A stretch of 64,000 nt of DNA, from contig JAHJYW010000007.1 of NCBI GenBank assembly GCA_018827375.1, positions 1-64,000 of the forward strand. Direction: 5' to 3'. Positions 1,780 through 4,031 of the stretch are shown here, piece by piece; position 1 is the stretch's first letter, and each line of letters begins with the position of its first letter. The translations under genes and the position numbers were made by a program. The notes under the pieces were generated by a model. The model was not told the DNA's origin. It saw only the letters and a program-made list of their open reading frames with translations, and made no database searches. This stretch comes from Alphaproteobacteria bacterium (GTDB lineage: Bacteria; Pseudomonadota; Alphaproteobacteria; Caulobacterales; Hyphomonadaceae).

Positions 1780-3471
1780 ATGCCGACTAATGGTTCTCAG
1801 ATTTCATTCCTGAAGTACTTGCTACAGCGCAAGCACCCGAACACCACGGCGGTGGATCGTGTGGTGTTGCTTGAGCAGCATCTGGCGTTTGCGAGTCACA
1901 CCGCGACCATGGCCGGGGTGATGCTCGTCAACTCGACAGCGACGACCATGCTGATCGAGCAGAGCATTGCCAACACATCGCTGCGCTACTGGTTGTTCAT
2001 GAACTGGGTGCTGGCGGCGGTCCTCGTCATTGATGCACTCCTCAAGCGCGGATTGTCGCGACCAACCAACGTAAGTGGACGTTACCTGCGCCGCTCTGAA
2101 TGGCTGGCCTACACGTTCGGGTTGGCGTGGGGTTCGCTGCCTTTCTTCATTAATGGCGATAAATATATGGCGGTTATCTATGCCGCCCTGCTCATTTTGC
2201 CGATGATTGCCGGCATGTCGGCGCTACTGCCACATGTGCCGCGCGTGGCTTTGCGATATTCCGGCGCCGCCATATTCATGTTTCTGCTATTCATCGCGAT
2301 AGCATCCGCCCGCTCGACTTTCGCTATTTCCCTCATGGTCATGGTCTTCATGTTCGCCGTCTATTTCGGCATGAAGCGGACATATCTGACTTTCGTGTCC
2401 AACGTGGAGTCGCGCATCCGCGCGACCGAATCACATGAAATCCTGATCGGCGCCTTGAACGCGAGCGGACAGGCATTCGCCTATCTGGATGCGAAAGGGA
2501 CCGTCCTTGTTCAAAATGATCTCCACAAAAGTTATTTCGCGGGGACAGAAGGCGACTTGAGCGTCGGTTCGCGGCGGCTTCCCAAGGCTGGGGATCGTTA
2601 CTGGCAGAAGTCGGTCGAAACCGTGCCAAATGGCGGTCACGTGATTCTCCACACCGATGTCACAAGTCTCGAGCAAAGTAAGCGCGAGATCGAGGTTGCG
2701 AAGGAAGAGGCGGAAACGGCTGACGCGGCCAAGACCCGCTTCCTTAATTCAATGAGCCGCGAGCTGAAAGTGCCTCTGGATGTAATCGTCGGCTGTTCGG
2801 GACTGATGGGTAGTGATTCGAATATCCCGTTCGATGAGCGCGAATTCCGAGGTTATGCCGACCAGATCCGCAAACATGCGTCCTATCTTGGTGGCATCAT
2901 CGATCAGATCATCAGCTTCTCGAAATTGAATCGGGAAACGGTCACAGCTGAAGAAGAAATTGTTGAACTGTCCGAGATCATCAACAGCGCGGTCAGCCGG
3001 GTTCGACTGGCTTCGCCAGGTTATGCCGATGTGCCGTTGCAGGTGAGTACCGAGCCAGGGCTGCCTAAAGTTTATTACGACCGCACCGCACTGGAGCGTA
3101 TTGTGCAGAACCTTGTGACGAATGCTTTCGAACACGGTTCTGCGTCACCGATTACCGTGAAAGTGTCCCGCATTGTCGGCCGTGGCATCCTCCTGATGGT
3201 CAGGGACCGCGGTTCAGGCATGAGCAAGGAAGAGCTTGAAAAGGCTTTTGAGCCCTTCTTCCAGGGTGCGCGAACCAATGAGTTCAAGGACGGTCGGGGT
3301 GTAGGCCTTGGCCTGACGGTCAGCCGGAAGCTTGCCCGTCAGCATGATGGCGACGTTCTGCTGGATAGTCAGGAAGGCCGGGGAACGAGCGCGTTTCTGG
3401 TCATTCCGTCCAGCCGCTGCGTTGTCGCCGGCGATCAAAATCCTGCGGATGGCGAGCGCAGCGTCGTCTGA
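1780..3471 (+). CDS. Membrane sensor histidine kinase with degenerate H-box (Arg for His)
   Basis: A 563-residue multi-domain kinase. About five or six hydrophobic segments fill residues 38-200. A PAS-like stretch follows (about 225-300, 'AYLDAKGTVLVQN'), then a short coiled region, a dimerisation/H-box region (about 320-385) and a HATPase_c domain. The ATPase boxes look intact: N-box 'IVQNLVTNAFEHG' near 440, G1 'DRGSGM' near 475, F-box 'FEPFFQG' near 490 and G2 'GRGVGLGLTVS' near 505. The H-box reads 'FLNSMSRELKVPLDVIVG', so the position of the usual phospho-acceptor His is Arg327 (codon CGC, 2758-2760). No receiver domain or adjacent response regulator is present. It may be a pseudokinase or scaffold, as known for DivL, which has Tyr at that position, but this is inference. 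Confidence 0.87.
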   Translation: MPTNGSQISFLKYLLQRKHPNTTAVDRVVLLEQHLAFASHTATMAGVMLVNSTATTMLIEQSIANTSLRYWLFMNWVLAAVLVIDALLKRGLSRPTNVSGRYLRRSEWLAYTFGLAWGSLPFFINGDKYMAVIYAALLILPMIAGMSALLPHVPRVALRYSGAAIFMFLLFIAIASARSTFAISLMVMVFMFAVYFGMKRTYLTFVSNVESRIRATESHEILIGALNASGQAFAYLDAKGTVLVQNDLHKSYFAGTEGDLSVGSRRLPKAGDRYWQKSVETVPNGGHVILHTDVTSLEQSKREIEVAKEEAETADAAKTRFLNSMSRELKVPLDVIVGCSGLMGSDSNIPFDEREFRGYADQIRKHASYLGGIIDQIISFSKLNRETVTAEEEIVELSEIINSAVSRVRLASPGYADVPLQVSTEPGLPKVYYDRTALERIVQNLVTNAFEHGSASPITVKVSRIVGRGILLMVRDRGSGMSKEELEKAFEPFFQGARTNEFKDGRGVGLGLTVSRKLARQHDGDVLLDSQEGRGTSAFLVIPSSRCVVAGDQNPADGERSVV

Positions 3472-3479
3472 TCCTGCCT

Positions 3480-4031
3480 TCAGGCGGCCACGCGCTCAGA
3501 GCCTGCCGACGCGCGCCCGGTTTCTGATTCGGCGATCATGCCCAGAAAGGTTGCATCCAGCTCGGGACTTTCCTCAGGCACGCCCAGCTGACTGGCGATT
3601 CCATCTATCCTGACCTTGGTGCCCTTGCGACCAATGATACGCGCCAACATGCGACTGACAGCGACGCTCTCGCCCTTGATAAGGATGTCATGTGTGTAGC
3701 AGACGTAATTGTCCTGCCAGCCAACTATTCGGGTGACGATCTCGACCTTGCCCGGACGCGTCAGGGCTTCCATTCGACTAATCGTTTCGGCCTGAATTAT
3801 CGGCATCCATCCATGTTTGCGGATCATCCGGCCAAGCCCGATGCGTATGACGGAATTGATTGTGCCGAGATCCGTGAGCGAGCGTACCCGGTGCAATGGC
3901 ACAGTCGAGGCAAAGCCCTGATCAAAGCGACACAGGCGCACAGTCAAGTACGTCGGTGCCAGCGGATCGTCCGCAATTGGCCTGCGCAGCGCAGCCAACA
4001 AGACAATCATGAAGCGTATAAACAGATTCAC
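3480..4031 (-). CDS. Hotdog-fold thioesterase-like protein (4HBT/THEM6-like)
   Basis: 183 residues. An N-terminal hydrophobic stretch is followed by a hotdog domain resembling the THEM6-like thioesterase group, with 'IGLGRMIRKHGWMPIIQAE' and the strand 'VEIVTRIVGWQDNYVCYTHDI'. These proteins are presumed to act on acyl-CoA or related thioesters. The Asp/Asn usually seen in the 'NGHMNN'-like loop is not obvious here ('SLTDLGTINS'), so activity is uncertain. The start is GTG, supported by an AAGGAGG ribosome site 7 nt upstream. It runs in the same direction as the flavin reductase (66-bp gap) and is convergent with the kinase gene, whose stop is 8 nt away. Confidence 0.7.
   Translation of the reverse strand: MNLFIRFMIVLLAALRRPIADDPLAPTYLTVRLCRFDQGFASTVPLHRVRSLTDLGTINSVIRIGLGRMIRKHGWMPIIQAETISRMEALTRPGKVEIVTRIVGWQDNYVCYTHDILIKGESVAVSRMLARIIGRKGTKVRIDGIASQLGVPEESPELDATFLGMIAESETGRASAGSERVAA

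Follow-up and report, generated by a model that had tools for sequence, protein, structure and literature searches.

A Hyphomonas membrane protein with the domains of a histidine kinase carries arginine in place of the phospho-acceptor histidine, is held under strong purifying selection in this state, and is encoded beside a flavoenzyme gene in all 76 genomes (76/76) in which the pair was followed. The protein, of 563 amino acids, is encoded at 1780–3471 (+) of the window, by which we mean the whole 64,000-nucleotide stretch of DNA that was analysed. An earlier note on this DNA had described the altered acceptor site but had overlooked the constant partner, which is the new fact reported here; how the two proteins might work together is proposed below from sequence evidence.

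The genome containing the window belongs to Hyphomonas, and its named relatives are H. chukchiensis, H. oceanitis and H. johnsonii. Pfam detects HisKA at residues 317–384 of the kinase-like protein (32.1 bits, cut-off 26.9), followed by HATPase_c at residues 434–544 (89.2 bits, above cut-off), which is the domain order of a HisKA sensor histidine kinase. In an AlphaFold model (mean pLDDT 79.9, pTM 0.49) the N-terminal part is made of six long helices compatible with a six-transmembrane (TM) bundle, followed by a sheet of PAS type, the hairpin of DHp and the CA domain. These parts are predicted to lie at about residues 24–229 (six TM helices), about 230–293 (PAS-like), 295–385 (DHp) and 393–545 (CA/ATPase), and fold and structure searches relate the kinase core to the crystal structures of HK853, YycG and DivL. 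Judged by its domains, the protein is assigned to the HisKA/HATPase_c superfamily; judged by the defining residue, it is not a histidine kinase.

Around the acceptor site the open reading frame reads ...KTRFLNSMSRELKVPLDVIVG..., and the codon CGC at 2758–2760 (+), which aligns to the HisKA phospho-acceptor, encodes arginine, as the earlier note had claimed. Counted from the ATG at 1780 this residue is Arg325, two lower than the number 327 given before, and the residue four positions further on (+4) is Val329. Among the 21 HisKA-matching proteins of the same genome, 19 have histidine at this site, one has tyrosine (the DivL orthologue) and one, the window protein, has arginine. The N, G1, F and G2 boxes for ATP binding had been described as intact, and all of their key residues are indeed present (N448/N452 in N; D476, G478 and G480 in G1; F493 in F; G507, G509 and G511 in G2), together with G535 in G3. 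The absence of an adjacent response regulator extends to the whole 90-kb contig, on which none of the genome's 31 Response_reg matches (0/31) is located.

Selection and acceptor states among relatives

Arginine is present at the acceptor site in all six independent assemblies of the window's Hyphomonas clade, at 83–100% identity, which rules out a sequencing error at 2759. The codons in these six are CGC, CGC, CGC, CGA, CGG and CGC, so that it is the amino acid, not the codon, that has been kept; the acceptor-site residue is likewise constant inside each of the other clades despite synonymous codon change. In the Arg clade, dN/dS (Nei-Gojobori) is 0.057 overall, 0.10 in the TM part, 0.04 in PAS, 0.018 in DHp and 0.041 in CA, figures that are approximate, as dS exceeds 1. 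The most constrained domain is thus DHp, the bearer of the lost acceptor. By the same method His-bearing Henriciella orthologues give 0.17 overall, and the Arg and Ala clades lie lower, at 0.02–0.06. Rough as they are, these low values speak clearly against relaxed selection and rule out pseudogene decay, in agreement with the earlier view that the gene is not simply decaying. The case for a maintained pseudo-histidine kinase is strong.

The earlier note had proposed that homologues should be aligned, and that histidine in sister species combined with relaxed selection would count against its reading. Sister species have arginine and retain the ATP boxes; histidine appears only at genus distance, in Henriciella, and relaxed selection is not seen.

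More broadly, the acceptor site is occupied by a residue other than histidine in 39 of the 39 inspected Hyphomonas genomes that have the gene. Further clades of the genus show Ala (with one Thr), Met, Ser, Thr, or, in a second Arg clade, arginine again. Outside Hyphomonas, histidine is present in g14, g18 and the main Henriciella-type group g15, whose tie to Henriciella is through L059 (Henriciella mobilis) and L087 only (query match 100%). Other replacements outside the genus are Gln in g21, Arg in the divergent g15 subgroup g15-b, and either Ala or Val in g35, which belongs to a different family of the order. In all, two clades beyond that of the window have arginine independently.

At least three changes between histidine and other residues are required on each of two maximum-likelihood trees, one built from the kinase-like protein and one from the adjacent flavoenzyme, and the flavoenzyme tree implies four or five losses if histidine was never regained, the exact number being uncertain on account of long branches. 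Against a single loss at the base of Hyphomonas, the genus falls into two lineages on the flavoenzyme tree and one clade is rejected (p 0.004), a test that carries little weight given the long branches. Of the earlier picture, the pseudo-histidine kinase stands, with the correction that arginine is one of several replacements that followed repeated loss of histidine.

Other parts of the kinase have changed as well. In kinases with phosphatase activity the +4 residue is Thr or Asn. Here 22 of the 22 members with histidine have Thr or Ser, and the Hyphomonas and g15-b clades show Val, Ala, Leu, Tyr or Gly. Intact ATP boxes are found in the window's Arg clade and in the Ala clade; they are degenerate in the second Arg clade, a second Thr clade and g15-b, and in the Ser clade, with proteins of 417–444 amino acids, the CA domain is missing altogether. 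The TM, PAS and DHp parts remain in the clades whose CA domain is degenerate or lost. ATP binding is therefore not a constant feature of the family, although it may matter in the window's clade; the earlier description as an ATP-binding pseudokinase agrees with the intact boxes there, but not with the ruined or absent ATP domain of related clades.

The flavoenzyme neighbour

The neighbouring gene (382–1686, −), divergent from the kinase-like gene, encodes a flavin amine-oxidase-fold protein (PF01593) of 434 amino acids. The distance between the two genes reaches about 1.1 kb in one of the 76 genomes (G102), and their order varies among divergent, tandem and convergent. In a Henriciella-type subgroup (L147–L152, L170, L171 and L174) the pair is convergent and the two frames overlap by about 28–31 bp at their 3' ends. 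The outer surroundings differ between clades; going by names that we presume from reading the sequences, the window clade has zwf and sugar genes there and the Ser clade has lon; mreB is found near the pair in both the Ala clade (with pbp2 and rodA) and the second Thr clade, and further clades have other neighbours. Linkage that survives such shuffling of order and neighbourhood points to a shared job and not to a shared promoter.

The linkage also holds in reverse: all inspected flavoenzyme genes of the order (E <= 1e-40) have a kinase-like partner, bar a fragment at a contig end (G011). A second exception (G674), from a distantly related family of the same class, is a flavoenzyme copy that stands alone. 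This homologue (L164, 6601–7953; 42–47% identity) lies in a 6.4-Mb genome outside the order, no kinase-like partner or functional neighbour was found near it, and it is possible that it was acquired by horizontal transfer.

The closest solved relative of the flavoenzyme is 2b9w/2bab, a distant match that covers its whole length (residues 11–403, E 2e-19), and 2BAB is a polyunsaturated fatty acid isomerase of P. acnes (PMC6162330). The two proteins are alike in this whole-length match and in the FAD-binding amine-oxidase fold, and the Hyphomonas protein carries the FAD-binding Rossmann motif IGAGPAG, so that both homology and motif agree with an enzyme of this kind; they are unlike in that the match is a distant one. 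Taken together, the Hyphomonas flavoenzyme is probably a fatty-acyl isomerase or oxidase.

Candidate modes of action

On balance, we lean towards a six-TM/PAS pseudo-histidine kinase receptor in which phosphotransfer has stopped, whose output would pass by contact and which would be tied to the flavoenzyme. An ancestor that was a normal HisKA kinase would have lost the acceptor histidine, joined in Hyphomonas by loss of the phosphatase residue at +4, and the His-less protein would then have been retained as a non-phosphorylating signalling protein. The four-helix bundle of DHp would serve for binding or conformational change and deliver the output through contact with other proteins, and ATP or ADP bound in the intact CA domain would modulate it at most. 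The working unit would be the adjacent flavoenzyme, often together with a thioesterase-like protein (see below), and with such a unit the receptor would most likely sense the membrane, or the lipid substrate or product of the flavoenzyme, and control or anchor the enzyme. Physical contact between the two proteins is suggested by the linkage of their genes. Against this reading, the intact ATP boxes of the Arg and Ala clades, with dN/dS of about 0.04, would go unexplained if ATP were irrelevant. Also, in the genera that retain histidine this pair presumably works with phosphotransfer, and the flavoenzyme gene may then be a target of regulation instead of encoding a physical partner. A broader version, which we put forward only tentatively, is that a sensor-kinase scaffold has repeatedly been turned, within one order, into a phosphate-free membrane receptor serving an adjacent lipid-modifying flavoenzyme, in which case the histidine kinase architecture would anchor a metabolic enzyme or act as its allosteric subunit, and would not head a two-component system.

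The strong conservation of DHp would suit a modulator like DivL, whose DHp would bind a phosphorylated single-domain regulator (for example DivK) or another histidine kinase and set its activity, the flavoenzyme linkage being incidental or related to input. For docking in DivL, three positions after Y550 are important (+3 R, +7 T and +12 Y). They read R/N/F in His members, K/D/C in the window clade and differently again in most other clades; this variation among His-less clades argues mildly against one fixed receiver partner, and no gene for a kinase or regulator is linked to the pair. In favour of such a role, DivL, from the same order, works in this way, since with Y550 it binds DivK~P and is without kinase or phosphatase activity (PMC4211667), the DivL proteins of some alphaproteobacteria have no kinase domain (PMC2877005) and so resemble the Ser clade, and a study of H. 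neptunium infers that further inputs feed into the CtrA pathway (PMC7200025). Overall, we consider this alternative, which includes the modulation of another kinase suggested in the earlier note, less likely than the receptor reading but still a serious candidate. Quite improbable, in our estimate, is a mixed dimer in which the protein would keep its catalysis, binding ATP and trans-phosphorylating the histidine of another kinase. Heterodimers with a dead partner are known (ChrS/HrrS; PMC9491836), and the Arg and Ala clades keep the N, G1, F, G2 and G3 residues, with a dN/dS of about 0.04 for the CA domain; however, a search for a His-bearing family paralogue that could serve as partner found none in Hyphomonas genomes, other matches being ordinary kinases that share the core, and in sister clades the gene persists although its CA domain is ruined or missing.

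The long stem branches that follow loss of histidine, and the decay or loss of CA in some clades, could be taken as signs of a gene on its way out, losing catalytic residues under relaxed selection. With dN/dS in the Arg and Ala clades below that of the His-bearing orthologues, frames that are open, and a flavoenzyme gene kept alongside at every locus inspected, we hold this to be very unlikely. The idea that arginine (Thr or Ser in other clades) is itself the phospho-acceptor would fit its invariance in six species through synonymous codon changes, but Ala, Val or Met occupies the site in close and distant relatives and the +4 residue has been lost too. We know of no HisKA kinase that phosphorylates arginine, and give this idea hardly any credence.

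Our favoured receptor reading has parallels in known systems. NifL combines PAS with a histidine-kinase-like core that acts by direct protein contact, and appeared in our fold search as 9qq6; it is unlike the window protein in being soluble and in having a transcription factor, NifA, as its partner, and the relationship between the two is seen for the kinase core only. A pseudokinase variant of ChrS in C. glutamicum is likewise a dead kinase that still influences signalling, with a heterodimer proposed (PMC9491836), although it is a laboratory-evolved frameshift mutant and the present proteins form a natural, conserved family. DivL (fold match 4q20) shares the HisKA/HATPase_c domains, a replaced acceptor histidine and the want of kinase and phosphatase activity (PMC4211667), and its kinase domain is dispensable or absent in some species (PMC2877005). 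It differs in being a separate gene with a longer, different N-terminal part, in having no six-TM bundle and in its tyrosine at the acceptor. The DivL-type gene of the window genome is L078, with the H-box VSYQLRSPL, and the window protein aligns to its product over the kinase core only, at 25% identity; DivL, cited in the earlier note, therefore holds as a precedent but not as the same protein. Identity with DivJ was rejected as well, the NF050805 equivalog model scoring 109.8 bits against a cut-off of 1000; in H. neptunium, divJ is HNE_0746 (PMC7200025).

Well-studied natural pseudo-histidine kinases are few, DivL above all, and we found no report of this kinase-like family in the open-licence literature. 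Here a single orthologous gene, tracked by its fixed neighbour, occurs in His forms beside several independent His-less forms, with or without the ATPase domain. With such a series it becomes possible to examine which elements of a histidine kinase keep their importance in the absence of phosphotransfer, and the series also offers a candidate partner that is not a kinase.

Intergenic region and thioesterase-like gene

The divergent genes are separated by 93 bp (1687–1779), in which blocks are conserved across an alignment of the six Arg-clade species: ATTAACGAA; CATAAAGTT; and GGTGACAAGGC...ATTTTCA. Presumably this region holds the promoters of both genes. Additionally, GGTGACAAGGC...ATTTTCA and ATTAACGAA are near-invariant among species whose coding synonymous divergence exceeds 1 per site, and they resemble the site of a regulator more than a promoter alone.

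Convergent with the kinase-like gene, on its other side, is a gene (3480–4031, −) for a hotdog thioesterase-like protein of 183 amino acids with a weak match to PF13279. This gene also adjoins the pair in Henriciella, g21, g15-b and g35 loci; elsewhere in Hyphomonas the homologue is unlinked to the pair. Several Arg-clade genomes have two copies, one beside the pseudokinase gene and one elsewhere. The second homologue (G000:C45:87464-87994) is the better conserved and is present in all tested Hyphomonas genomes.
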